Below the pieces are notes generated by a model, which was given only the letters and a program-made list of their open reading frames with translations, searched no databases and was not told where the DNA came from. A DNA stretch of 64,000 nt from positions 3,968,001 to 4,032,000 of the forward strand of contig NC_092672.1 of the NCBI RefSeq assembly GCF_964355755.1, in the 5' to 3' direction. The position numbers and the translations under genes were made by a program. This DNA comes from Antedon mediterranea (taxonomy: Eukaryota > Echinodermata > Crinoidea > Comatulida > Antedonidae). Below are positions 6,788-63,759 of the stretch, one piece after another. Every line of letters starts with the position of its first letter. The first letter of the stretch is position 1.

Positions 6788-7249
6788 TGACGTTCAGAAA
6801 TAGACCAATCAGCATCTTCCTATTATTTTACCTAATGGAAAGAATTATTGATTATCTATGTTCACATGTGAGAGGGAGGTACTTCACAAAAACTGCGGAA
6901 GTCATCGGATATTGAAGTTTCGATTAGTAATCCGGTTTAAATAGTTCCCTTTCCTAATGTTATTGTAACACAAAGAGCCGGTCTAATAAAGGTACTTGTT
7001 TCTTTAAAAAAAAACATTTAACAAGTTCAAAAGTCGTGGGAATCGCATGATATGTCCTGTATAATATCAGCAAATGGACAAATTAGGGAGTTTTCGATTG
7101 CAAAATGACAACATATTGTTTACACGTGAGGAACAGATTTCATCTATAAAAGTCGAGTGAAAATTGAAACTGGATTTATTCATACAACAGCAGATGACAG
7201 GGAAACATCCAGTTTACAGATCAACAGAAAAGACATCCAGAATACAACA
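6788..7249 (+). promoter_or_regulatory. C1q-3 promoter and 5' UTR
   Basis: TGACGT (6788-6793), conserved GATTAGTAATCCG word, CACGTG and TATAAAAG (7145-7152), 105 nt before the ATG at 7250. Confidence 0.75.
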
Positions 7250-9025
7250 ATGTATCTCCGGTAAGTAAATTGTTCTTTAAGCTTTTAATAATATTTAGGA
7301 TGATATTTGGTGCTACTGTACTTTAGCACTGCTACTCTGTACTTTGACATTACTGTCTTTTACTGTAGTACTGATTTGTTAGAATTCTGTAACCTTCCTT
7401 GAACATGTTGGCAGTGAGAAGGAAAAACAATATTAAAACACACAAAAGGTACAATATGGGTCGTGTGTACTCCAGTTAGGAATGCAATACAACTGAAGAT
7501 CATTTAATACAAGTCAATTTCTGTTTAAATATTCTTTTACCATTGTGTTCTATTAGCCTATTTGAGATTATTTTATTATATACCTTAACATTTTGTCACC
7601 GATGTGAAATTATTGTAAGGCAAACTGAAGTCCATTCTAAAAAAAGTGGAATAAGCTGTTAGGAGCTCAACGTAATAAGCCTTAGCATTACGTGGTAGGC
7701 TGGCCAGGTCCTTTCCATGTCGCCTTATCCTTCGTAGCATTTTCAATCAGATACTCATTTACAGCTGAGTTGTTTTTATCTGGAAATTAGCTTGGGTCTT
7801 TCTGTATGATAGTCAAGTGTCCAACCACTCAGCTACCAAACTTCTTCGGCTAACAAATTATTATAAATATCATATTTAAAACTTCTTGTTGGGCTTAGTT
7901 ATGTTGTTTCCTTGTACAACTGGACAGCTTATTGCTCCAGGGAGAATCGTATGTAGGCTGTGAAATAAAAGGATTACAGAATGCTGGCTGATGAACATAC
8001 TTTGAAAAAACCCTGCTTGACAATGATTGATTCCAAACATTTTTTTTTACAAAATTTTAATACGGGGTATTTTTTGCTTCATTTTGATATAAACAAGTTT
8101 GGTTGATAAGAGTGTAATTATTACTGAATGTGTTAAGGGGTATAATTAATAATAACATACAGTGTTTATATTGAATTTCAGATTTAATATGATATTAACA
8201 ATGGTGATACAGATTAGTATAATCTATGTCATCAAATCAGCAGCTCAAACCAATTCTGAAGCTTGTAATAGCTGTTGTACAGCTGGGGTTCCTGGCATTC
8301 CAGGAAATCATGGAAATCCAGGTACATCAGGGCCACAAGGAATGAATGGAGAAAAAGGAATGAATGGAGTGAAAGGAGAACAAGGAATGAATGGAGAACA
8401 AGGATTGAAAGGAGATAATGGAAGGAATGGAGAACAAGGAATGAATGGAGAACAAGGAATGACAGGAGACCCGGGAATGAAAGGAGAACAAGGAATAACA
8501 GGAGATGATGGAAGGAATGGCTTAGATGGGTCTCCTGGAAAGTTAGGACCAACTGGACCTCAAGGCCTCATTGGACTACCAGGTACAAATGGTGTAAAAG
8601 GAGAAAAGGGTGAACAAGCTAGTCAGCAGAAATCTGCCTTTTCAGTATTTTTTACATCAAACCCAGGTCGTCATGCCGTTAGCCCAATGAAGTATAACAC
8701 AGTAATTACAGATGTAGGAAATCACTACAACAAAGAAACAGGAAAGTTTGTCTGTGAAATTCCAGGTGTTTATGTATTCCAGGTGACATCAATGAAATCA
8801 AATGGTAGTGGTAAAATTTTAACAAGAATCATGAAAAATGGCAATAATCAAATGTCTGCATGGATGAGTGCTTCAGGGCATAATTCTGTAAGTACAATGG
8901 TGGTTCTTGATCTGGTATCAGGTGATCAAGTATGGACTCAGCCACATAGTTCAAGCCATAACTATTACTACAGTGACAGTGACAGATACTGCTCATTCTC
9001 TGGTTTCTTACTTTATGCAGCATAA
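7250..9025 (+). CDS. C1q-3: secreted collagen-stalk C1q-domain protein
   Basis: Exons 7250-7260 and 8182-9025, junction codon CGA (Arg). Product 284 aa: signal peptide (MILTMVIQ variant), CNSCC, 37 Gly-X-Y triplets (39-149) including less regular GDN, GDP and GDD triplets, and a 135-residue C1q head. The head carries a Glu at TGKFVCEIPG where the others have Thr or Ala, and the variable patch PHSSSHNYYYSDSD. The intron is type II with a minus-strand tRNA-SINE remnant. AATAAA at 9484-9489, just before the hAT-like insertion. Confidence 0.9.
7690..7860 (-). mobile_element. Old tRNA-derived SINE remnant in the C1q-3 intron
   Basis: Read on the minus strand, GTAGCTGAGTGGTTGGA resembles a tRNA A box, followed by a decayed B box (GACCCAAGTT) and a tail ending GTAAATGAGTACCTG. 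The same remnant is in the introns of C1q-4 (about 13000-13110), C1q-5 (25455-25570), C1q-7 (38340-38450) and C1q-9 (52075-52180). In C1q-1, -2, -6 and -8 the tRNA-like part is deleted, defining two intron types. Confidence 0.5.
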
Positions 9026-9546
9026 AGCAAACATATACAAATAATTGTATTGTTTTAAACAATTAATTTGCAAATAGGCATCTAGAAGTCAAACTATATA
9101 AATGTCACAAGCTACATTACTATTAATTAAATGTTTGTCCCCAAAAACATGAAGATAACAAACTTTGAATACTGAAGGCTATATTGCAGTTTTAATAAAG
9201 TTAATCGCTTCCATAGAAGAACAAATTTTTTTAAATGCTTTTACTAAATATATAGTTAAATTCAACCAAAAACCCATTGGGTGGCAGCCAATTTTCTATT
9301 TTCTATTCCCCACCTATCTCCCACAATTGTTGGTCAAAATAAATAACTACTTTTTATGTGACATTAACATTTTTTAGAAAGGTTAGTGATTTTTTAGGTA
9401 ATTTTACTTACCAGTTGAAAAATTATAAATGTAACATTTATTTAAACTTATTTAGAACTAAATTTTTGTAAGTATATATTACAAATAAAAATATTAATAT
9501 TCAGCATTTTGAGTGGATCATTTGTTTGAACTATGAACGATATATG

Positions 9547-11299
9547 CAGGCCCGTATGCAGCATTTATAATGGGGGGGTGAGAGCGAAGCGAGCAACAAT
9601 GGCTGGGGGCCAGGGGGCCGCCAAGGGCCCCCGGTCAGGGTCCAGGGGCCGAAGGCCCTCGAAAAATTTGCGTTATTTGACGTTCTAAAGACTGATGTAA
9701 GACTCTCTGTTGTGGCTTGGGCTAGTTGAACGATGGACACCAGAACTTAACGCTTTCATGATGAGGCCAACTCAGCAGGGGTGGCGCCAGGATCTTCCCG
9801 ACGCGGGGGCTACATTCCCCGACGAGGGGGCTATGCGAGCAAAGCGAGCATCACTAGGCTGAGGGCCAGGGGCCGCCAAGGGCCCCCGGTGGGGGTCCAG
9901 GGGGCGAAGCCCCCGGAAGCAACGCGTTCTAGCGTCATTTGAGGTCTTTTTAATCAGATTTAGGGTAGCCATTTTTTATAATGCATAAAAAAAATACTGC
10001 GTGCAAAAAAACGATGCGCGATGACGGTTTCAATCCATATTTTTCAATTTAAAAAATAAAAGTTCAAAGAAAATTTTGAAAAATAGAGTTGGAGGTCCCG
10101 GAAATTGGACTTATTATACTTCAAAACATGAAAAAAAATATATAAGTCCCTATCATGGGTTGTGACTGAGCTAAGAAATGTTTGAAAAATAGAGATGTTA
10201 GGTCCCGGAAAATGTACTTCTTGTTCTTCGAAATATGACCAGCTTTATTGTTGGGGCTGAGCTAAGAAAATGTTTAAAACTAGAGCTGCAGGTCTTCAAA
10301 AAATTGCATTTTATACTTTGGAAACATCAGGCCTAGAGGCTTAAAAAACGCAAGCGTAGACCTTTTTCAGTCGGGGAAAAAAGTTTATTCCTCCCAGGTG
10401 TATGCATGCGTACCATCTGGACTTCCGAGTGGTGAGAAATTCATGACATACAGGATATTGAAAATGTAATAACTATAGCTATAATGTTGGCTAAGCGAAA
10501 ATGGCATGTTTTTTTGTTTAGTAATGGATGACAAATTTATTTTAGGTGCCCCACGGTACAGAAGGTTACTTGTAAATTAAAAAATTGGTGAACAAACGAA
10601 CAATTACCATAATTCGTTTTTGCTGTAGTGTAGCGTACGTCGACGCAGTACACGACGTAACCGTCGGTAAACTTCGCCTGGAAAATAACACATTACACAT
10701 TTTGGTCCCTGGATGAAACTTGATATCACGCGTCTCGACCCAACGTTGAACGATTCGTACAAAGGGATACCGCCAGACAAGTGCGTACCTAGCTATTGTT
10801 TAGTAGTAAGTTAGATCGCTGGCAATAATGAATGCATATAAAGTGCATAATATCACTCTGACGTACTCTCACGGTCAATGAAACGTCGCGGTTTTCTAGG
10901 CGCTGAAGCTAGCTACGAAGTGAACGCGAACGCTTTTTACTGTATATTATATTCCCCGACAAAAAGTACACGTGTTCCCTGACGTTAAGTTGTCTGTATT
11001 TCTCCAGCAAACACTTTACCGCGTACCGCGTACATGAAGCGCTAAGCTATTGCTTGTCGTCACATGATCGACTGCGCATGTTTTACATCGAGTTTGTAGT
11101 CCGTTCAGATTCCGTAATTTAATTACCGGTATTTTTTCATTTTATATTAGCATATTTTTGTTTGTATACCATTGATAATGTAAATTTTGTATATATATAT
11201 TTATTGACAAGAAAAAATACCAACCGAGGAAATAGTGGACCTTTTGGGACTTGGGGGGGTGCGTCTGCACCCAACGCACCCCCCCTGGATACGGGCCTG
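9547..11299. mobile_element. Non-autonomous hAT-like DNA transposon, 1753 bp
   Basis: The ends are inverted repeats: CAGGCCCGTATGCAG at the left and the complement of CAGGCCCGTATCCAG at the right. A 5-bp duplication ATATG flanks it (9542-9546 and 11300-11304), and removing one copy restores the sequence of the sister spacers. CAG-type ends with a 5-bp duplication fit the hAT group that makes 5-bp duplications (inference). No transposase frame is seen. Inside are two GC-rich blocks (about 9575-9660 and 9830-9920), a second hAT-like end (CAGGGGTGGCGCCAGGA near 9775) hinting at nesting, and three degenerate repeats of 100-110 bp starting near 10075. Confidence 0.8.
10070..10340. repeat. Three degenerate direct repeats inside the hAT-like element
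   Basis: The phrase AATAGAG-(T/A)TG-(G/T)AGGTCCCGGAAA recurs near 10080 and 10185, with a weaker third copy (ACTAGAGCTGCAGGTCTTC) near 10283. Period is roughly 100-105 bp. Function unknown. Confidence 0.5.
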
Positions 11300-12050
11300 A
11301 TATGGTATAATTGTTTATGTGATGTGAGAAAGTTGGATAAAAATCAAAGGATCTTCTTCTTTTAAGTTTTGAATTCTTTGCTTGGCACACTTTATTTTAT
11401 AAAATTCAGATGAATCACAATATTGCTCATGATGACACTGGAAACCAGTTTGTTACAACTTGACAAATAACTTTTTCATAAAATACAAAACAGAGCTGAA
11501 CGTTTAAAGGAAACAATAAATTCTGATATAAATAATTAAATATTTGAAAAACCACAAAAAATGCACTAAACATAAAGAAAACTTGACAAAATGGTAAAAA
11601 ATACTGAAGAGGATTTTGAAAACTATGAAAACTAGAGAAATAAAAATACCTCCAAAATATTTAGACGAATTATATACCAATGAAATATGAAGAAGCTTAA
11701 AAACAGGATAAATCATATTCATATTGACTACAGTAAGAAACAAAATATATAAACATAACATTTACATATGTTGTTTTACATACTGTAATGGGATGAATAA
11801 TATAAATATTTGAGTACAGTAAGAAATATGTTAATATAACATTAAATATTCTGTTTTACATACTCTGTATGTGGGACAAATTATATAAATATTTGACTAC
11901 ATTTACATATTTTGTTTTGCATACTACTGTAATGGGACGAATTATATTTATTTTTGGCTGGAGTAAGTATTACAATATATGCTCTTCAGTGTAATAACTG
12001 ACATGCATGCGCATACACATTTTTTAAGAAACACGAAGCAGCAAGTTGAT
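11300..12050. other. Spacer between the hAT-like element and the C1q-4 promoter
   Basis: Continuation of the C1q-3 downstream spacer after the insertion; collinear with 2620-3377. No gene is seen. Confidence 0.6.
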
Positions 12051-19296: not shown

Positions 19297-20405
19297 TAAT
19301 AGATATACAATTACCCACCCATATACATAAGTGTCCCACAGACACTGGACGTCCTGCCTCCTTGCTTCAGCCATTTTGAAAATCCAAAATCGGACAGAAG
19401 TATATGACCGCCCTCATCAAGTAAAATATTCTCCATCTGAAAAGAAAAATTAGTGTTTAATGCTTTTTAAATCTTTCAGCCAACCCAATTTAAACTCCCT
19501 GCCTGTAATTTACTTCCAAAATCCAGAATTGGAATATGACCACTTTCAACTAGCAGAACAATCTGCATCTGCTATGAAAATAGAAATAATTATAGCAGAA
19601 GTTCTTTTATTATTATATATTAATATGCATATATATATATATAAATAATAAAAATTCTTATTATATAATATTTTACATTTTTTCGAATACATACCTTTAA
19701 ATCTCTATATATAATTCCTGCCCTATGTAAAAATGCCAAAGCCATCGCTATACGAATACGAATAGAACTTTACGAATACGATCTCCATGAGTGGCATAAT
19801 CCATTACTTTAAATCAGAACAAACAAAATAAATTATATTATTTGGAATATTTTTGTATTTTCAAATTGATTTCCCTAATATTTTTTTTGCATTTATTAAA
19901 AAAAAAAAATATTGATTAGTATGTCCTTATCCGAGAAGACCACTAGGATTATGGCTGTGGAGTGCCTTGAACATGTGCTGATTTTATGGCTATGGTTGGC
20001 AGCGCCTCTGCCTTAAACCGCTTGATACTCAGCTGATGTAACTCTCACATATATATAACTATATCTTTATTTCATTGTGTAAATAAAACACATGTTAACC
20101 ATAAATATGTACATCATCATCTTAAATCCTGATATCTTAATCTGTCATCACACAACTTACAAATTATATATAGCTATCGATATCAATACATATCTGAATT
20201 CAACAACAGTTTATCTAGGTATGCAGCTCACATAACAGCATCAACATTGGAGAAATGTATGTAACTGATTAAGAATTAACCATTAAGTTTCCATTACAAA
20301 AAGGCAAATTGTCCAACAAGAGCTAAATGTTAATATGAATGTATGACATAGATATGGAAATAAGAAAAAACTAAAGTATATTTAATATTTATTTTATTTG
20401 TAGCT

Positions 20406-26900: not shown

Positions 26901-29679
26901 TTCTCTGGTTTCTTACTTTATGCAGCATAAAGTAAACATATACAATAAATACTTGTATTGTTTTAAACACTTTAGATGAATCATGCTAATTCAAAAGAAG
27001 CTTTTGTTAGTAATTTTTAAAGGTTAATTTTACCAGTTAAAAAATTATAGATATAACATTTATTTTATTAGAGGAACTAAATTGTTTAAATACATGTTAG
27101 AAATAAAAATATTAATATTCAGTATTTTGAGTAAATCTATGTTATGTTGAACTATGCAGGCGGTTCAAAAGGATTACATTTTTTTACACACTTTATTACA
27201 GCCTATTCACACTCAAATCAGGAAGGTTTTAGTAAATTCATCCACTACAATTCTGAATTAATTAATTAAAGACTGTCAACATTCAGTTCTTCGACATTTG
27301 ACCTTTTAAAACAGATTTTACACATTTATTTATTTAACCCATGGCTGGTAGTAGTACTGCACTTTGCAAAGATTATGCTAAGAGAAATATATCAGCATGG
27401 GTAACTCTGCAAGTTCCTTGTTTAAAAATCAAAGCCTCTTCTTTTTTTTTGTTAAGTTTTGAATTCTTTCCTTGGCACACTTTATTTTATAAAATTCATA
27501 TGAATCGCAATATTGCTCATGACGACACCGAAACCAGTTTGTTACAACTTGACAAATAACGTTGCATAAAATATAAAACAGAACTGAGCATACTTTTAAA
27601 CTCTGTCTACACTATGAAGCTATTTTAACAAAATATGGTAGTAATATGCCAAAATATGGTAGTAATATGCCAAAATATGGTAGTAATATGCCAAAATATG
27701 GTAGTAATATGCCAAAATATGGTAGTAATATGCCAAAATATGGTAGTAATATGCCAAAATATGGTAGTAATATGCCAAAATATGGTAGTAATATGCCAAA
27801 AGATGGTAGTAATATGCCAAAATATGGTAGTAATATGCCAAAATATGGTCATCATATCCATATATTGAGAAATCAAATTTTGTTGTCACATAAACTTTGA
27901 TAGTGTAGACAGAGTTTTAGATGAAACAATGATACAAAAATTATTCCGTGCCCAATTATAGGAATAGTATGTGGAATAGACTACACTATTTTAGAATACT
28001 TACGGACAATTCCCTAGAAATTGGGCGTGGTTTCCAGACATCGTTACCGACACCATTCAATGTTAACTCCTGACACGTTTTTGGCAATTTCCTCTTCAAA
28101 TAAACAGTTGGCGGTGTCTGTTTAGAGAGAACCTTTTCAAAAGACATACCGACAAAAAACTCCATTCTTTTTAACGTTGCTAGGCAGCTTAGTCTTGCAC
28201 ATGGATCTTTACAGAGTAACTACAGGAAAAAAAAGTGATCATAAAGAAAAATGCATAAACTACCAGAGACTATCGGGTTATCCAAGGTCAGGCTGTTGTA
28301 TACTGCAAAAAAGAACGTATAGTTTGATTATAAAGATAAAAACGTGGCATTATTAGGGAACTATCAATCTACGACGATCTACAAAATAGTTGACGTGTTG
28401 CCAAAACGGTGTCCAAAAATGAGTGTTCAAAAAGAATGTTGAAATGGATCTGTGTGCACACAATAATATGGCATAAAACTATAGTGGCTTCGGCATAAAA
28501 GTATAGTAGCTCCGAGTTCATTGATTGTCAGATGAGAATTTAAAAAATTTAATTAAAAAGTAGTTAACTAAAAATGAATCAACTGTTACCTGAAGAATGA
28601 CGTCCTGAGCAGGATAACTAACAAATGGAGGTAACTTGAATTCCTTATTTATAACCTTATTATACATCTCAATGTGATTGGTGGAACCGCTTAACGGATA
28701 TTTACCCGTCATCAAGCAAAACATTATAATGCCGAGTGACCACCAGTCAACACAATGATCATAGTCACCCATATTTAGTACTTCAGGCGCTGAAAAAATT
28801 AAGGTAGATGTTTAGTTGTCCTGTTTAAAAAAAACATTAAAACGATGGTATAAATTTGGAGACTATTACAGAGCAGAATTTAGATTTGTGACTATGTTTA
28901 ATTAGCGGTGGTCGATATAGGATTTTAAAAAAGGTGGTAGGGCCGGAAATCAACAAAAGGAAGTTCTGTGCCTCTCTCCTATTCTAGCTTACATTAACTA
29001 TTAACTACATACTGTATTAACTACGAATTCAGCATTTTATCAATCAATTTAAAAAACTGTCTACCTGTTGAACAACAAACAATTTTGGATGATATTATTT
29101 AAAGATAGCAAAATGATTCACTTAGCCTTATTAGAGATAATAATAGATATACAATTACCCACCCATATACATAAGTGTCCCACAGACACTGGACGTTCTG
29201 CCACCTTGCTTCAGCCATTTTGAAAATCCAAAATCGGACAGAAGTATATGACCGCCCTCATCAAGAATATTCTCCATCTGAAAAGAAAAATTAGTGTTTA
29301 ATGCTTTTTAAATCTTTCAGCCAAGCCAATTTAAACTCCCTGCCTGTAATTTACTTCCAAAATCCAGAATTGGAATATGACCACTTTCAACTAGCAGAAC
29401 AATCTGCATCTGCTATGAAAATAGAAATAATTATAGCAGATGTTCTATTATTATATATTAATATGCATATATATATATAAATAATAACAATTCTAATTAT
29501 ATAATATTTTACATTTTTTCGAATACATACCTTTAAATCTCTATATATAATTCCTGCCCTATGTAAAAATGCCAAAGCCATCGCTATCTCTGCAATGTAA
29601 AATCGTGTCGCAATCACACTGAAAGCGCCCTCTAACAACCATAGACTATGAAGATCTCCATGAGTGGCATAATCCATTA
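23949..29679 (-). CDS. RSKR: RSKR-like AGC-type kinase, copy B (C-lobe exons, apparently intact)
   Basis: Minus-strand exons 29531-29679, 29163-29277, 28590-28789, 28004-28219 and terminal 23949-23987, all with consistent phases and GT-AG sites. Together they encode the kinase C-lobe: HGDLHSLW, catalytic loop IIYRDLK (Tyr in place of His), SDFG, CGTLMYMAPEVL, DWWSLG, then [10 protein letters not shown], and a tail ending in hydrophobic motif FDNFDW and stop. The order and wording ([25 protein letters not shown]) resemble vertebrate RSKR (SGK494) more than RSK or SGK, recognised from memory. A 3-nt deletion removes one Leu (MENILDE). No N-lobe exon is recognised upstream, so the gene may be 5'-truncated. 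Its last intron encloses C1q-5 on the opposite strand. Confidence 0.65.
24218..24241. repeat. 24-bp hairpin flanked by an 8-bp duplication
   Basis: CATGGAGGTAT-TT-ATACCTCCATG folds into a perfect 11-bp stem. It is flanked by ACTGTAAT on both sides (24210-24217, 24242-24249). The other C1q upstream regions have one ACTGTAAT and no hairpin, so this is a precise small insertion. Confidence 0.8.
24367..24839 (+). promoter_or_regulatory. C1q-5 promoter and 5' UTR
   Basis: TGACGT (24367-24372), GATTAGTAATCCG, CACGTG and TATAAAAG (24735-24742), 105 nt before the ATG at 24840. Confidence 0.75.
24840..26930 (+). CDS. C1q-5: longest-stalk C1q-domain protein
   Basis: Exons 24840-24850 and 25844-26930, junction codon CGA. 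Product 365 aa: signal peptide, CNSCC, an unbroken stalk of 64 Gly-X-Y triplets (39-230) and a 135-residue head. The stalk is about twice the array average and consists of higher-order blocks such as [15 protein letters not shown]. The first half of the head matches C1q-7 ([19 protein letters not shown]) while the second half matches C1q-4 ([20 protein letters not shown]), so the gene is a mosaic. Its intron has an internal duplication of about 130 bp (from 25051, repeated from 25183). It is the only C1q gene inside the last intron of kinase B. Confidence 0.9.
25975..26450 (+). repeat. Expanded collagen 18-bp repeat in C1q-5
   Basis: About 25 near-identical 18-bp units plus 9-bp GTGAAAGGA half-steps that preserve frame. 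A strong candidate for replication slippage or unequal crossing-over. Long open frames on the minus strand here are artefacts of the period. Confidence 0.85.
26931..27597. other. Spacer between C1q-5 and the kinase B exons
   Basis: C1q-5 3' UTR and the shared AT-rich spacer. No gene is seen. Confidence 0.55.
27598..27917. mobile_element. MITE with CTGTCTACACTATCAAA-type ends, copy B, expanded by a VNTR
   Basis: Same ends as the copy at 15378-15510 (left end now CTGTCTACACTATGAAG), but 320 bp instead of about 130 because the interior word has been amplified. Confidence 0.8.
27634..27843. repeat. VNTR: ten 21-bp units
   Basis: Unit TATGGTAGTAATATGCC-AAAA repeated exactly ten times with one substitution (AAGATGG in one unit). 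Units A, C and D of the block carry only one to one and a half units at the same place. The period is divisible by three, which creates open frames on both strands. Confidence 0.95.
28220..28589. other. Kinase B intron between the 28590 and 28219 exons
   Basis: Ordinary intron, conserved in units A, C and D, with no feature recognised. Confidence 0.5.
28790..29162. other. Kinase B intron, the empty Helitron site
   Basis: Corresponds to the A-unit intron without the Helitron; the empty site ATAATAATAG is near 29140. It is the reference for the boundaries of that element. Confidence 0.6.
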
Positions 29680-41928: not shown

Positions 41929-43248
41929 ATTTTGGATGATATTATTTAAAGATAGCAAAATGACTCGCGTATTAGAGATAATAATAGATATACAATTACC
42001 CACCCATATACATAAGTGTCCCACAGACACTGGACGTTCTACCACCTTTCTTCAGCCATTTTGAAAGTCCAAAATCGGACAGAAATATATGACCGCCCTC
42101 ATCAAGTAAAATATTCTCCATCTGAAAAGAAAAATTAATGTTTAATGCCTTTTAAATCTTTCAGCCAAGCCAATTTAAACTCTCTGACTGTAATTTACTT
42201 CCAAAATCCAGAATTGGAATATGACCACTTTCAACTAGCAGAACAATCTGCATCTGCTATGAAAATAGAAATAATTATAGCAGAAGTTCTTTTATTATTA
42301 TATATTAATATGCATATATATATATATAAATAATAAAAATTCTTATTATATAATATTTTACTTTTTTTCGAATACATACCTTTAAATCTCTATATATAAT
42401 TCCTGCCCTATGTAAAAATGCCAAAGCCATCGCTATACGAATACGAATAGAACTTTACGAATACGATCTCCATGAGTGGCATAATACATTACTTTAAATC
42501 AGAACAAACAAAATAAATTATATTATTTGAAATATTTTTGTATTTTCAAATTGATTTCCCTAATATTTTTTTTGCATTTATTGAAAAAAAAAATATTGAT
42601 TAGTATGTCCTTATCCGAGAAGACCACTAGGATTATGGCTGTGGAGTGCCTTGAACATGTGCCGATTTTATGGCTATGGTTGGCAGCACCTCTGCCTTAA
42701 ATCGCTTGATCACTCAGCTGATGGAACTCTCACATATATATAACTATATCTTTATTTGTGTAAATAAAACACATGTTAAACATAAATATATACATCATCA
42801 TCTTAAATCCTGATATCTTAATCTGTCATCACACAGCTTACAAATTATATATAGATATCGATATCAATACATATCTGAATTCAACAACAGTTTATCTAGG
42901 TATGCAGCTCACATACAGCATCAACATTGGAGAAATGTATGTAACTGATTAAGAATTAACCATTAAGTTTCCATTACAAAAAGGCAAATTGTCCAACAAG
43001 AGCTAAATGTTAATATGAATGTATGACATAGATATGGAAATAAGAAAAAACTAAAGTATATTTAATATTTATTTTATTTGTAGCTTTGTGGATTTACAGT
43101 TTAAAAAAAACATGATACAAAAAGAGACTAATTAGATGAGGGTGCATTAATTGAATTGTGGAACAGGAACGTCAGCACATTCCTGGTTAAATTAGAAAAA
43201 AAAAACAATAAACAACCATTTGATAGTGCATTCACCAATTACTGTTTA

Positions 43249-54730: not shown

Positions 54731-55006
54731 TAGATGAAACAATGATAGAAAAATTATCCCATGACCAATTATAGGAATATAGTACATTCGGAATAGACTA
54801 CACTACTTTAGAATACTTACTGACAATTCCCTAGAAATTGGGCGTGGTTTCCAGACATCGTTACCGACGCCATTCAGCGTTATAGTCCAGATCCCTATGT
54901 ATTTTCGTGTGCAGATCATGGGGAAAGTGTAAACATTGTGTTTTATGAATATTTGAATCATGCTGGTTATAAAAACCCATGTTGTCAAATTTCTAAAATT
55001 TATCTT

Positions 55007-55338
55007 TGACCTCTGACCTCAATTTGAATGTTTTGACCCATTGAAAACAAAATGATCATATCTTTGCAACGCGTGGATTAAATGAAATAATTTTAGTGTC
55101 AAATTATTTGGGAGATGCATATTAATATTCGTTCTAATGGAAAAGTTTGTCCAAAAATGGCTGAAGTATGATTTTTGGCATATTTGACCTTTGACCTACA
55201 TATCATATAACTCCGTAACTAATAGTTGGACAAACTTAAAATAGGGCTCAAATTAATCTGAAGGTATATGTTTCTATTCAGTCTAATAAGAACTTTTACA
55301 AGAAAATGACCCAAAATCTTGTTATTGACCTTTGACCT
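55007..55338. promoter_or_regulatory. Three DR1 nuclear-receptor-type half-site pairs in the left foldback arm
   Basis: TGACCT-N-TGACCT at 55007-55019, 55185-55197 and 55326-55338. On the other strand this is AGGTCA-N-AGGTCA, the DR1 form bound by RXR, HNF4 and COUP-TF families. The right arm keeps perfect pairs at 60691-60703 and 60991-61003; the middle one (60832) is degraded. Binding is not shown. Confidence 0.45.
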
Positions 55339-55799
55339 GTACAGGTAGTACATATTTCTATAATCTCAAAAACTATGGGCCGTAAAATGGTTGTTTTTGT
55401 GAAATTGTTTGAACAATTTACATTTATATGTTGTATAATAACAACATTTTATAGAAATGTAAAAGAATTCTATTCATGATCACTAACTTTATAATTTATT
55501 AACATCACTAGCATTTGTTATAATATTAAAATGTGTTATATTTGCTGATTTTAAGCACTTCCCATGAATTTATCAGAATTATGTGTATTTAATATAAAGT
55601 TTGTTTTTTTTTTATATATAAAGAAAATTTAATTGTCTATCAAATAAGACTATTTTCAAATTATTATGGCTAAAACTTAATTAGATACAGGCAAAAAAGT
55701 GTATTTTTACTTGTGTGAACAGCGTCCTCAATCTTCATTTTTTCCCCAAAAATATACGAAAGCCCATTAATGCCATTTGAAGTATATGTTTTTCGAACG

Positions 55800-58660
55800 T
55801 AATCCGTTCTAACGAATTAGTAATTCGTTTGAACGGATTAATAATCTGTTCAAACGAATTAGTAATCCGTTCAAACGAATTGCAACATATACAACAAGTG
55901 CCATTTAAAGTACATGTTGTAATTCGTTTAAACGGATTACTAATCCGTTCAAACGAATTACTAATTTGTTTAAACGGATTACTAATTTGTTCAAACGAAT
56001 TACTAAATTCGTTCAAACGAATTACTAATTTGTTTAAACGGATTACTAATTTGTTTAAACAAATTAATAATTTGTTTAAACGGATTACTAATTCGTTCAA
56101 AAGGAATTAGTAATCCGTTTAAACAAATTAATAATTTGTTTAAACAAATTAATATAAGTTGTTTAAACGGATTACTAATCTGTTTGAACGAATTAGTAAT
56201 TCGTTTCAACGAATTAGTAATTTGTTTAAACAAATTAATAATTTGTTTAAACGGATTACTAATTCGTTTAAACGAATTAGTAATTCGTTTAAACAGATTA
56301 GTAAGCCGTTTAAACAAATTACTAATCCGTTTGGACGGATTCCTAATTCGTTTGAACAGATTTAATCTGTTTAAACAAATTAGTAATTCGTTTGAACGGA
56401 TTAGTAATCTGTTCAAACGAATTAGTAATCCGTTCAAACCAATTGCAACATATACAACAAGTGCCATTTAAAGAATATGTACGAAAGCCCATTAATGCCA
56501 TTTTAAGTATATGTTTTTCGAACGTAATCCGTTCTAACGAATTAGTAATTCGTTTGAACGGATTAATAATCTGTTCAAACGAATTAGTAATCCATTCAAA
56601 CGAATTGCAACATATACAACAAGTGCCATTTAAAGTATATGTTGTAATTCGTTTGAACGGATTACTAATCCGTTCAAACAAATTACTAATTTGTTTAAAT
56701 GGATTACTAATTTGTTCAAACGGATTACTAATCCGTTCAAACAAATTACTAATTTGTTTAAACGGATTACTAATTCGTTCAAACGAATTACTAATTTGTT
56801 TAAACGGATTAGTAATCCGTTCAAACGAATTACTAATTCGTTCAAACGAATTAGTAATCCGTTTAAACGAATTAATAATTTGTTTAAACAAATTAATAAT
56901 TTGTTTAAACGGATTACTAATCTGTTTGAACAAATTAGTAATTCGTTTGAACGAACTAGTAATCCGTTTAAACAAATTATTAATTTGTTTAAACAAATTA
57001 ATAATTTGTTCAAACGGATTACTAATTCGTTAGAACGAATTAGTAATTCGTTTGAACAAATTAGTAATCCGTTTAAACAAATTACTAATCCGTTTGAACG
57101 GATTCCTAATTCGTTTTAACAGATTATTAATCTGTTTAAACAAATTAGTAATTCGTTTGAACGGATTAGTAATCCGTTCAAACGAATTACAACATATTCT
57201 TTAAATGGCACTTGTTGTATATGTTGCAATTGGTTTGAACAGATTACTAATTCGTTTGAACAGATTACTAATCCGTTCAAACGAATTACTAATTTGTTTA
57301 AACAGATTAATAATCTGTTCAAACGAATTAGGAATCCGTCCAAACGGATTACTAATTTGTTTAAACGGATTACTAATCTGTTTAAACGAATTACTAATTC
57401 GTTTAAACGAATTAGTAATCCGTTTAAACAAATTATTAATTTGTTTAAACAAATTAATAATTTGTTTAAACAAATTACTAATTTGTTTAAACAGATTACT
57501 AATTCGTTCAAACGAATTACTAATTCGTTCAAACAGATTAGTAATCCGTTTAAACAAATTATTAATTTGTTTAAACAAATTATTAATTTGTTTAAACGGA
57601 TTACTAATTCGTTTGAACGAATTAGTAATCCGTTTAAACAAATTATTAATTCGTTTAAACAAATTAGTAATCCGTTTAAACAAATTAGTAATTCGTTTGA
57701 ACGAATTAGTAATTCGTTTGAACAAATTAGTAATCCGTTTGAACAAATTAGTAATTCGTTTGAACGGATTAGTAATCCGTTTAAACGAATTACAACATAT
57801 ACTTTAAATGGCACTTGTTGTATATGTTGCAATTCGTTTGAACGGATTACTAATTCGTTTGAACAGATTATTAATCCGTTCAAACGAATTACTAATTCGT
57901 TAGAACGGATTACGTTCGAAAAACATATACTTAAAATGGCATTAATGGGCTTTCGTAATTATGTTGTAATTCGTTTGAACGGATTACTAATCTGTTCAAA
58001 CGAATTACTAATTTGTTTAAACAGATTAATAATCTGTTCAAACGGATTAGTAATTTGTTTAAACGGATTACTAATTTGTTCAAACGAATTACTAATTCGT
58101 TCTAACGAATTAGTAATCCGTTTGAACAAATTATTAATTTGTTTAAACAAATTAATAATTTGTTTAAACGGATTACTAATTCGTTCAAACGAATTACTAA
58201 TTTGTTCAAACAGATTAATAATCCGTTTAAACAAATTATTAAACAAATTATTAATTCGTTTAAACGGATTACTAATTCGTTTGAACGAATTAGTAATTCG
58301 TTTGAACGGATTACTAATCCGTTTAAACAAATTAGTAATTCGTTTGAACGAATTAGTAATCCGTTTAAACAAATTAGTAATTCGTTTGAACGGATTAGTA
58401 ATCCGTTTGAACAAATTAGTAATCCGTTTAAACAAATTAGTAATTTGTTTGAACGGATTAGTAATCCGTTCAAACGAATTACAACATATACTTTAAATGG
58501 CACTTGTTGTATATGTTGCAATTCGTTTGAACGGATTACTAATTCGTTTGAACAGATTATTAATCCGTTCAAACGAATTACTAATTCGTTATAACGGATT
58601 ACGTTCGAAAAACATATACTTAAAATGGCATTAATGGGCTTTCGTACTAATTCGTTAGAA
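55800..58660. repeat. 21-bp palindromic-word satellite, block I
   Basis: Units of the form GTTYRAAC-RRATTANTAATYY at a 21-bp period. Words such as GTTTAAAC, GGATTAGTAATCC and AATTAATAATT are themselves palindromic or near-palindromic. Because 21 is divisible by three and the words lack stops in most frames, several frames on both strands stay open for up to 400 codons. These are not genes. Confidence 0.9.
56481..57956. mobile_element. Satellite foldback element nested within element I
   Basis: Complete ends ACGAAAGCCC and GGGCTTTCGT. Flanked by GAATATGT (56473-56480) and AATTATGT (57957-57964), a diverged 8-bp duplication. The target, AAAGAATATGTTGTAATTCG, occurs intact in the related elements at 59547 and 63000. 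Confidence 0.75.
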
Positions 58661-58711
58661 CGGATTACGTTCGATAAACATATACTTAAAATGGCATTAA
58701 TGGGCTTTCGT

Positions 58712-59021
58712 ATAATTTTGAGCTAAAAGTTCATCTTTTTGGTTTAATAAAAGCTATCTAGCAGATATTAATACACACAATTCATATTTTATTGGATAGA
58801 TATTATGATTATCTTTCCAATAAAATATGCTGTTTGTGTAAGAATGGCTGTACAAGATTGTTTGTACTGGACCAAAAAGATGGATTTTTAGCACAAAATC
58901 AAAATCTTTTTTAGCATGCACCATGTAATAACCTCAGGAAAAATGTCAAGCTATCGAAATATTTTTCTCATTTTTTTTCATAAACTGACCTAGTACGTTA
59001 TAAAAGTGGTATGTAAATTAC
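58712..59021. other. Single-copy core of the 6.25-kb foldback
   Basis: The only part of the foldback between the satellite insertions. AT-rich, no open frame of note, with a small inverted pair (TTTTATTGGA near 58787 and TCCAATAAAA near 58817) and another (CATCTTTTTGG near 58733 and CCAAAAAGATG near 58873). No function is recognised. Confidence 0.5.
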
Positions 59022-59029
59022 AGGTTACT

Positions 59030-60232
59030 ACGAAAGCCCATTAATGCCATTTTAAGTATATGTTTTTCGAACGTAATCCGTTATAACGAATTAGTAATTC
59101 GTTTGAACGGATTAATAATCTGTTCAAACGAATTAGTAATCCGTTCAAACGAATTGCAACATATACAACAAGTGCCATTTAAAGTATATGTTGTAATTCG
59201 TTTAAACGGATTACTAATCCGTTCAAACGAATTACTAATTTGTTTAAACGGATTACTAATTTGTTCAAACGAATTACTAATTCGTTCAAACGAATTACTA
59301 ATTTGTTTAAACGGATTACTAATTTGTTTAAACGAATTAATAATTTGTTTAAACGGATTACTAATTCGTTCAAACGAATTAGTAATCCGTTTAAACAAAT
59401 TAATAATTTGTTTAAACAAATTAATAATTTGTTTAAACGGATTACTAATCTGTTTGAACGAATTAGTAATTCGTTTGAACGGATTAGTAATCTGTTCAAA
59501 CGAATTAGTAATCCGTTCAAACCAATTGCAACATATACAACAAGTGCCATTTAAAGAATATGTTGTAATTCGTTTGAACGGATTACTAATCTGTTCAAAC
59601 GAATTACTAATTTGTTTAAACAGATTAATAATCTGTTAAAACGAATTAGGAATCCGTTCAAACGGATTAGTAATTTGTTTAAACGGATTACTAATTTGTT
59701 CAAACGAATTACTAATTCGTTCTAACGAATTAGTAATCCGTTTGAACAAATTATTAATTTGTTTAAACAAATTAATAATTTGTTTAAACGGATTACTAAT
59801 TCGTTCAAACGAATTACTAATTTGTTCAAACAGATTAATAATCCGTTTAAACAAATTATTAATTTGTTTAAACAAATTATTAATTCGTTTAAACGGATTA
59901 CTAATTCGTTTGAATGAATTAGTAATTCGTTTGAACGGATTACTAATCCGTTTAAACAAATTAGTAATTCGTTTGAACGAATTAGTAATCCGTTTAAACA
60001 AATTAGTAATTCGTTTGAACGAATTAGTAATCCGTTTAAACAAATTAGTAATTCGTTTGAACGGATTAGTAATCCGTTTGAACAAATTAGTAATCCGTTT
60101 AAACAAATTAGTAATTAACAGATTATTAATCCGTTCAAACGAATTATTAATCCGTTCAAACGAATTACTAATTCGTTATAACGGATTACGTTCGAAAAAC
60201 ATATACTTAAAATGGCATTAATGGGCTTTCGT
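59030..60232. mobile_element. Satellite foldback element II, 1203 bp, perfect 8-bp duplication
   Basis: ACGAAAGCCC at 59030 and GGGCTTTCGT ending at 60232. Flanked by AGGTTACT on both sides (59022-59029, 60233-60240). The right end lacks the subterminal CAACATATAC/GTATATGTTG hairpin present at the left, so it has a small deletion near 60115. The body is the 21-bp satellite. Confidence 0.9.
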
Positions 60233-62265
60233 AGGTTACTGTAAATAATCAGTAAAACAAAGTTATAACCTGTTAAGTTTATGAAACCACATAAAAATGT
60301 GGTATTTTGAGCGGAAAATGAAGATTGAGGGCGCTGTTTACACAAGTAAAAAAATACACCTTTTTGCCTGTATCTAATTAAGTTTTAGCCATATTAATTT
60401 GAAAATGGTCTTATTTGATAGATAATTAAATTTTCTTTATGTCAAAAAAATAAAACTTTATATTTAAATACACATAATTCTGATAAATTCATGTGAAGTG
60501 CTTAAAATCAGCAAATTTAATATTATAACAAATGCTTACAAAGTTGGTGATCATAAATAAAATTATTTTACATTTCTATAAAATGTTGTTATTATACAAC
60601 ATATGAATGTAAATTTTTCGAACAATTTCACCAAAAAAAACCTTTTACGGCCAATAGTTTTAAGACTGTAGGAATGTGTACTACCTGTACAGGTCAAAGG
60701 TCAATAAGAAGATTTTGGGTCATTTTCTTGTAAAAGTTCTTATTAGACTGAATAGAAACATATACCTTCAGATTAATTTGAGCCCTATTTAAAGTTTGTC
60801 CAACTATTAGTTACGGAGTTATATGATATGTAGGTCAAAGGTAAAAAATGCCAAAAATCATACTTCCGGCCATTTTTGGACAAACTTTTCCATTAGAACG
60901 AATATTAATATTTCATTAATTATTTCATTTAAAATAAGCGTTGCAAAGATATGACCATTTTGTTTTCAATGGGTCAAAACATTCAAATTGAGGTCAGAGG
61001 TCAAAGATGAATTTTAGAAATTTGACAACATGGGTTTTTATAACCAGCATGATTCAATTATTCATAAAACACAATGTTTACACTTTCCCCATGATCTGCA
61101 CACGAAGGCACTTTTTTTGACATAGGGATCTGGACTATTAGCTCCTGACACGTTTTTGGCAATTTCCTCTTCAAATAAACAGTTGGCGGTGTCTGTTTAG
61201 AGAGAACCTTTTCAAAAGACATACCGACAAAAAACTCCATTCTTTTTAATGTTGCTAGGCAGCTTAGTCTTGCACATGGATCTTTACAGAGTAACTACAG
61301 GAAAAAAAAAAAGTGATCATAAAGAAAAACTGATAAACTACCAGAGACTATTGGGTTATCCAAGTTCAGGCTGTTTTATACTGCAATAAAGAACGTATAG
61401 TTTGATTACAAAGATAAAAACGTGGTATTATTAAGGAACTATCAATCTGCGACAATCTAGTTGTGTTGCCAAAATAGTGTCCAAAAATGAATGTTCAAAG
61501 AGAATGTTGCACTGAATAAAGATGGCATAACTACAGTAATTCCTAGTTCATTAATTATGAGATGAGAATTAAAAAATTTAATTACTTAGAAATCAATCAA
61601 CTGTTACCTGAAGAATGACGTCCTGAGCTGGATAACTAACAAATGGAGGTAACTTGAATTCCTTATTTATAACCTTATTATACATCTCAATGTGATTGGT
61701 GGAACCACTTAACGGATATTTACCCGTCATCAAGCAAAACATTATAATGCCGAGTGACCACCAGTCAACACGATGATCATAGTCACCCATATTTAGTACT
61801 TCAGGCGCTGAAAAAATTAAGGTAGATGTTCAGTTGTCCTGTTAAAAAAAAATATTAAAACTATGGTATAAATTTGGAGACTATTACAGAGCAGAATTTA
61901 GATTTGTGACCATGTTTAATTGCGGTGGTCGATATAGGATTTTAAAAAGACGGTAGGGCCGGAAATCAACAAAAGGAAGTTCTGTGCATCTCTCCTATTC
62001 TAGCTTACATTAACTATTAACTACATACTGTATTAACTACGAATTCAGCATTTTATTAATCAATCTAAAAAACTGTCTACCTGTTGAACAATAAACAATT
62101 TTGGATGATATTATTTAAAGATAGCAAAATGATTCACTTACCCTTATTAGAGATAATAATAGATATACAATTACCCACCCATATACATAAGTGTCCCACA
62201 GACACTGGACGTTCTGCCACCTTGCTTCAGCCATTTTGAAAGTCCAAAATCGGACAGAAGTATAT

Positions 62266-63720
62266 ACGAAAGCCCATTAATGCCATTTTAAGTATATGTT
62301 TTTCGAACGTAATCCGTTCTAACGAATTAGTAATTCGTTTGAACGGATTAATAATCTGTTCAAACGAATTAGTAATCCGTTCAAACGAATTGCAACATAT
62401 ACAACAAGTGCCATTTAAAGTATATGTTGTAATTCGTTTAAACGGATTACTAATCCGTTCAAACGAATTACTAATTTGTTTAAACGGATTACTAATTTGT
62501 TCAAACGAATTATTAATTCGTTCAAACGAATTACTAATTTGTTTAAACGGATTACTAATTTGTTTAAACGAATTAATAATTTGTTTAAACGGATTACTAA
62601 TTCGTTCAAACGAATTAGTAATCCGTTTAAACAAATTAATAATTTGTTTAAACAAATTAATAATTTGTTTAAACGGATTACTAATCTGTTTGAACGAATT
62701 AGTAATTCGTTTGAACGAATTAATAATCTGTTTAAACAAATTAGTAATTTGTTTAAACAAATTAATAATTTGTTTAAACGGATTACTAATTCGTTTAAAC
62801 GAATTAGTAATTCGTTTAAACAGATTAGTAATCCGTTTAAACAAATTACTAATCCGTTTGGACGGATTCCTAATTCGTTTGAACAGATTATTAATCTGTT
62901 TAAACAAATTAGTAATTCGTTTGAACGGATTAGTAATCTGTTCAAACGAATTAGTAATCCGTTCAAACCAATTGCAACATATACAACAAGTGCCATTTAA
63001 AGAATATGTTGTAATTCGTTTGAACGGATTACTAATCTGTTCAAACGAATTACTAATTTGTTTAAACAGATTAATAATCTGTTAAAACGAATTAGGAATC
63101 CGTTCAAACGGATTAGTAATTTGTTTAAACGGATTACTAATTTGTTCAAACGAATTACTAATTCGTTCTAACGAATTAGTAATCCGTTTGAACAAATTAT
63201 TAATTTGTTTAAACAAATTAATAATTTGTTTAAACGGATTACTAATTCGTTCAAACGAATTACTAATTTGTTCAAACAGATTAATAATCCGTTTAAACAA
63301 ATTATTAATTTGTTTAAACAAATTACTAATTCGTTTAAACGGATTACTAATTCGTTTGAACGAATTAGTAATTCGTTTGAACGGATTACTAATCCGTTTA
63401 AACAAATTAGTAATTCATTTGAACGAATTAGTAATCCGTTTAAACAAATTAGTAATTCGTTTGAACGGATTAGTAATCCGTTTGAACAAATTAGTAATCC
63501 GTTTAAACAAATTAGTAATTTGTTTGAACGGATTAGTAATCCGTTCAAACGAATTACAACATATACTTTGAATGGCACTTGTTGTATATGTTGCAATTCG
63601 TTTGAACGGATTACTAATTCGTTTGAACAGATTATTAATCCGTTCAAACGAATTACTAATTCGTTATAACGGATTACGTTCGAAAAACATATACTTAAAA
63701 TGGCATTAATGGGCTTTCGT
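62266..63720. mobile_element. Satellite foldback element III, 1455 bp, in the DFG exon of kinase D
   Basis: Perfect 8-bp duplication AAGTATAT (62258-62265, 63721-63728). The terminal inverted repeats are about 190 bp and include ACGAAAGCCCATTAATGCC, TTTTTCGAACGTAATCC and a subterminal hairpin (CAACATATAC and GTATATGTTG around AACAAGTGCCATTTAAA). The body is the 21-bp satellite, whose polarity flips around the middle. Excising the element and one duplication restores the exon seen in copies A to C. Confidence 0.92.
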
Positions 63721-63759
63721 AAGTATATGACCGCCCTCATAAAGTAAAATATTCTCCAT

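Follow-up and report, generated by a model that had tools for sequence, protein, structure and literature searches.

The TU elements of sea urchins are foldback transposons whose outer domain consists of short direct repeats, an arrangement that recurs in the element described here; they differ from it in having 15-bp repeats and 8-bp target-site duplications. Comparable architectures have been characterized in Drosophila. Galileo, a member of the P superfamily, likewise carries long, internally repetitive inverted repeats, in which tandem repeats have been found by footprint and EMSA to hold extra transposase binding sites, but its transposase is of the P type with a THAP domain and its repeats have not been described as 21-bp palindromes (PMC3688188). 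What the tandem units do in Foldback and Phantom elements is reported as untested (PMC3688188). Similarly, Tetris of Drosophila virilis is a foldback with tandem repeats within its inverted repeats, which differs in its 8-10-bp duplications, its suggested Mutator affiliation and the occurrence of its 220-bp repeats as free satellite arrays as well; no autonomous copy of Tetris was found (PMC4079207).

A different set of eukaryotic transposons, IS3EU, is defined by TA..TA termini, usually 6-bp duplications and a transposase related to those of IS3/IS481, and GingerRoot elements are defined likewise (PMC10045372). In the literature searched, IS3EU was linked to satellite DNA only through notes of similarity, with the oyster satellites CgiSat35/47 and the beetle satellite TCAST10. 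In this study we examined an element of the crinoid Antedon mediterranea lying in a 64,000-nucleotide stretch of contig NC_092672.1 (positions 3,968,001 to 4,032,000), hereafter referred to as the window. A preliminary description of the locus knew of no described family with such a plan. In that breadth the statement does not stand, since foldbacks made of long, repetitive inverted repeats and hardly anything more are known in FB, Galileo and Tetris, but for the IS3EU-like superfamily no foldback of this plan was found in the literature searched.

Architecture of the element and its insertion in a kinase exon

The element is a non-autonomous foldback of 1,457 bp (TACGAAAGCCC...GGGCTTTCGTA) at positions 62265-63721 of the window, delimited with reference to 35 paired ends genome-wide. 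As expected of the foldback class, most of its length is filled by two inverted arms with internal 21-bp arrays (62265-62982 and 63004-63721; 718 nt, 89% complementary), separated by about 21 nt. Its body is a 21-bp tandem repeat of 60 copies (78% match, unit GTAATTCGTTTAAACGAATTA). Each end begins with a terminal segment of the inverted repeat, represented by 134 ends genome-wide: on the left (62265-62308, plus strand) it starts with TACGAAAGCCCATTAATGCCATTTTAAGTATATG.. and precedes the first 21-bp unit, and on the right it occupies 63678-63721 (minus strand). Inwards of these lie the outer blocks of 21-bp units, recognized as tandem repeats (62309-62391 on the left, where the sequence itself was also read, and 63595-63677 on the right), followed by hairpin linkers read from the sequence (62392-62429 and 63557-63594) and by the inner arrays, delimited by the inverted arms and tandem repeats and, in the left arm, by dyad centres as well (62430-62973 and 63012-63556). 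The inner arrays meet at a central linker, placed by sequence and inverted arms at 62974-63011, where the polarity flips. The GCCATTT.AAGTATATG motif found at the terminus recurs in the left hairpin linker, GCAACATATACAACAAGTGCCATTTAAAGTATATGTTG, and each of the three 38-bp linkers, the central one included, echoes part of the terminal sequence (GCCATTT.AAG.ATATG).

These data confirm a discrete foldback insertion with a 21-bp tandem body, a polarity flip at mid-element and palindromy at the scales of the word, the sub-terminal region and the whole element, all as initially proposed. The inverted ends, originally put at 190 bp, in fact extend over about 718 bp, and the boundaries first set at 62266-63720 each move outwards by one base. 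Indeed, a T before the ACG core and an A after the CGT core were present in 35/35 paired copies, with TACG..CGTA in nearly all of them, and the terminal T and A must therefore belong to the element. It follows that the duplicated 8-bp string AAGTATAT is A+AGTATA+T, and that the target-site duplication is AGTATA (62259-62264 on the left and 63722-63727 on the right), as supported by the flanks, the genome-wide copies and the empty site in paralogs. A perfect 6-bp duplication flanks 24 of the 35 paired copies, only 10 of which are compatible with the 8-bp duplication of the preliminary description, which was consequently rejected. The occasional fit of the longer reading is explained by a target site favouring A before the 6 bp (15/24) and T after them (14/24).

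The insertion interrupts a kinase exon on the minus strand, whose portion downstream of the element, including the DFG motif, lies at 62175-62264 and whose upstream portion lies at 63722-63759. When joined across the element, these flanks form an open kinase exon, which in combination with the next exon matches Pkinase at 4.9e-22. The interrupted gene belongs to a tandem array of about nine (C3:3942484-4085958), and uninterrupted paralogous exons in the window (19311-19436, 29155-29277 and 41996-42121, all on the minus strand) allow a direct empty-site comparison: the empty site GGTCATATACTTCTGTCC is found in two of these three paralogs and the third differs at one base. The joined reading and the empty sites together uphold the placement of the insertion in a kinase exon. 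The loss of one kinase paralog may be well tolerated. Several arrays of a repeated 18-bp ACAAGGAATGAATGGAGA unit, between positions 1509 and 53412 of the window, resemble collagen-type coding repeats and recur across the kinase gene array.

Other copies and the transposase-bearing partner

The genome (354 Mb, 18 contigs) was searched for the family ends allowing at most three mismatches, which returned 134 ends, while a reversed control returned none. Four copies lie inside the window. The second, identified by repeat comparison and paired ends, spans 1,205 bp (59029-60233) with a perfect 6-bp duplication, GGTTAC. The third (55755-58646) has an extra right end at 58712, a 66-bp end duplication, and is split by the fourth (56480-57957), which is nested within its central linker and whose duplication matches at 5/6 bases. 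The cluster at 55755-60233 is bracketed by 89% inverted repeats (54904-55741 and 60315-61106) and thus lies within a larger palindromic repeat; positions 58715-58899 form an imperfect hairpin. Many copies exceed 95% identity, and several unlinked ones of 1.4-1.5 kb are 95-99.7% identical (lower values are unreliable given the repeat alignments) and retain intact duplications, which implies recent movement of the family.

The preliminary description had suggested looking for an autonomous partner with the same ends, and this search succeeded. A search with the Pfam profile rva_4 (PF24764) matched C1:8956612, between two ends of the foldback's family, within a 14.4-kb element (C1:8954369 to ~8968774) that has the same ends, a perfect duplication, CGTAAG, and at both ends inverted repeats of about 0.8 kb built of the foldback's own array. 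A non-autonomous 1.46-kb copy is nested in its right end (C1:8967302-8968758), where it shows an 8-bp TTAATGGG repeat instead of a 6-bp one. The left arm of the window element matches the autonomous copy's outer left inverted repeat at 93% identity and the nested copy at 97%. The foldback family is real and recently mobile, and its probable autonomous partner has been found.

A short intron with GT..AG borders seems to interrupt the transposase gene of this copy, between ..CFMKLIQ and KELDIIVNEWN.. in the predicted protein. Its product is of the DDE type, matching PF24764 at 7.5e-30, with weak matches to Clr5 and rve and no other; among NCBIfam profiles it matches IS3 (2.9e-5) and IS481 (3.3e-3), both below curated cut-offs. 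A structure model built from 11 relatives (pLDDT 80) comprises N-terminal helices and an integrase-like core, and its closest structures are IstA, TnsB and retroviral integrases, with TM-scores that are low over the full length and rise when the core domains are taken alone. Another gene (joined positions 9439-11379 of the copy), on the strand opposite the transposase, encodes a partial HECT (ubiquitin ligase) domain (4.7e-7). Open transposase exons were found in only one copy of the foldback's family, plus one broken relative (C3:17383106).

Another large copy, of 9.07 kb (C1:36080679-36089946), was considered as the autonomous partner and rejected: it shows both ends and a perfect duplication yet lacks a transposase ORF, its middle being another foldback. 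This second foldback, at 2127-2943 and 7167-7990 of the copy, has arms of 832 nt that are 96% identical when one is inverted, and holds about 35 copies of another unit, which is near-palindromic and 88 bp long. Single ends with no partner inside about 3 kb looked truncated, and none was accompanied by a transposase-like ORF.

Related families and superfamily assignment

Two related families occur in the same genome. The sister family, whose transposase is 74% identical in amino acids and matches IS481 at 1.2e-7, has TA..TA ends, TACGAAAGCCTATTAGGG (TACGAAAGCCTATTAGGGCC), and perfect 6-bp duplications in 9/11 checked copies. Its array has a period of 21 and the unit AATTCGAAATTTCGAATTATT, which has CGAATTAnTAATTCG in common with the first family and a different 6-bp core. 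One of its copies (C6:31610731-31616525) carries the transposase gene doubled head to head in 1.2-kb arms of 97.8% identity, which enclose a retrotransposon-like integrase fragment, and in several further copies transposase matches occur close to both ends and on opposite strands. The transposase of the third family is 50% identical and is preceded upstream by period-21 units, GGCGTTATAACGCCCTAATAC. Its end, TACGGTGGCTGATTTCCGCC, was guessed from a single locus (L106) and then searched genome-wide, which gave 106 occurrences, with TA..TA termini and perfect 6-bp duplications in nine of the ten checked copies. The eight small copies among those checked hold about 3-7 units close to one end or to both, in most cases enclosing ordinary interior DNA, so that an array can be anything from a short sub-terminal block to a whole element. 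Its period is looser (21-23 bp) and its dyad signal weaker. A more distant group (34-37%) includes one member (L066) with a few 21-bp AAAATGGCnGCCATTTT repeats nearby, which is only suggestive.

On the basis of termini, duplication length and profile matches, the element is very probably a non-autonomous foldback derivative of an IS3EU/GingerRoot-like cut-and-paste DNA transposon. With these elements it shares the TA..TA termini, the 6-bp duplications found in the three families, and, in the partner copy, a DDE transposase related to those of IS3/IS481 in which no HHCC motif was seen by inspection. It departs from them in that its inverted repeats consist of about 0.7-0.8 kb of 21-bp palindromic units, which yield foldback derivatives, and in the HECT-like gene within its autonomous copy. 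An origin from a superfamily with 7-10-bp duplications (FB/Mutator, hAT or P/Galileo) might be suspected from the duplicated 8-bp string at the window element and from the fact that described foldbacks have mostly been assigned to Mutator (PMC4079207). However, the duplication is 6 bp genome-wide, in disagreement with the 8 bp of hAT and the 8-10 bp of FB/Mutator foldbacks, and the partner encodes an IS3/IS481-like transposase, matching rva_4 and, weakly, Clr5 and rve, instead of a THAP/P-type enzyme, which leaves such an origin extremely improbable. A Maverick/Polinton-derived element, which would also combine 6-bp duplications with long inverted repeats, is hardly credible either, given that the termini are TA..TA, that the genes found in the autonomous copy are an IS3/IS481-like transposase and a HECT-like one, and that a Pfam scan of four of its long ORFs recognized no polymerase or capsid gene.

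Origin and possible function of the 21-bp arrays

The preliminary description proposed that elements of this kind let satellite arrays spread by transposition. This reading needs rewording, as the array is the transposon's own terminal repeat and not its cargo. The array word has 1,047 exact occurrences genome-wide, and the number of words per end is the same in elements fetched by their ends (7.84) as in the genome (7.81), so that no free captured satellite is apparent. In addition, the 100 array matches listed all fall inside end-bearing elements. Within the assembled DNA, practically all such satellite is transposon end. That a pre-existing 21-bp satellite was captured by the transposon and spread as cargo, as the satellite-like appearance of the body might suggest, is thus largely refuted and very improbable: besides the ratio of array words per end, on which it was rejected, and the location of the matches, the array lies within each inverted repeat of the autonomous copy, and in two related families the corresponding place is taken by arrays of their own.

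The geometry of the arrays is regular. Dyad centres are far more frequent than in mononucleotide-shuffled sequence, and in the first two families their spacing is mostly a multiple of 10.5 bp and autocorrelation is highest at 21 bp and multiples thereof; in the third family the period of 21 is weaker. Half-site variants within the word show modest symmetry: it was detected for the ANT-centred word (P=0.008), while the TTTAAA-centred word is not symmetric. Across the three families the unit sequences differ partly (second family) or wholly (third family), with the period of about 21 bp being kept. The conservation of geometry under changing sequence is what would be expected of multimerized protein-binding sites on one face of the helix, and Galileo, whose transposase binds repeats within its inverted repeats, provides a precedent. 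We consider it reasonably probable, from these sequence patterns, that the 21-bp palindromic units constitute a binding-site array for the transposase or a partner protein.

Alternatively, the same transposon could carry arrays that are by-products and not binding sites, arising through slippage and expansion of hairpins or short terminal repeats in the course of replication or gap repair, while concerted evolution maintains the palindromes. Many copies differ in length by multiples of 21 bp, a perfect duplication flanks a 293-bp copy with only about 8 units, and the foldback architecture itself favours slippage, all of which agrees with this explanation. Neutral expansion alone would not, however, predict the recurrence of a 21-bp period and palindromic units in three families with differing unit sequences, and we regard the by-product reading as rather unlikely.

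In the reading favoured here, the window element is hardly anything beyond the autonomous element's pair of long terminal inverted repeats placed back to back. The DDE transposase of the autonomous copy would most likely recognize the TACGAAAGCCC ends and insert them at staggered cuts of 6 bp. The palindromic units of 21 bp are an integral part of the inverted repeat and, with a dyad every ~10.5 bp, one turn of B-DNA, would most likely bind the transposase or a partner protein, and the array would expand or contract in 21-bp steps through slippage or unequal exchange. As a more tentative generalization, to which we give somewhat less credence, the terminal repeats of this lineage might be co-evolving, multimerized transposase-binding arrays, in which the period of about 21 bp and a dyad per helical turn are kept, the sequence can vary freely along with the transposase, and the array is able to swell into a whole element.

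An IS3EU-like foldback is now paired with a transposase-bearing copy that has the same ends, a partner that was never found for Tetris (PMC4079207). The presence in one genome of three families with the same period and different units makes the idea of foldback repeats as binding sites directly testable. Our results highlight that DNA with the appearance of a satellite can be an intrinsic component of a transposon end.
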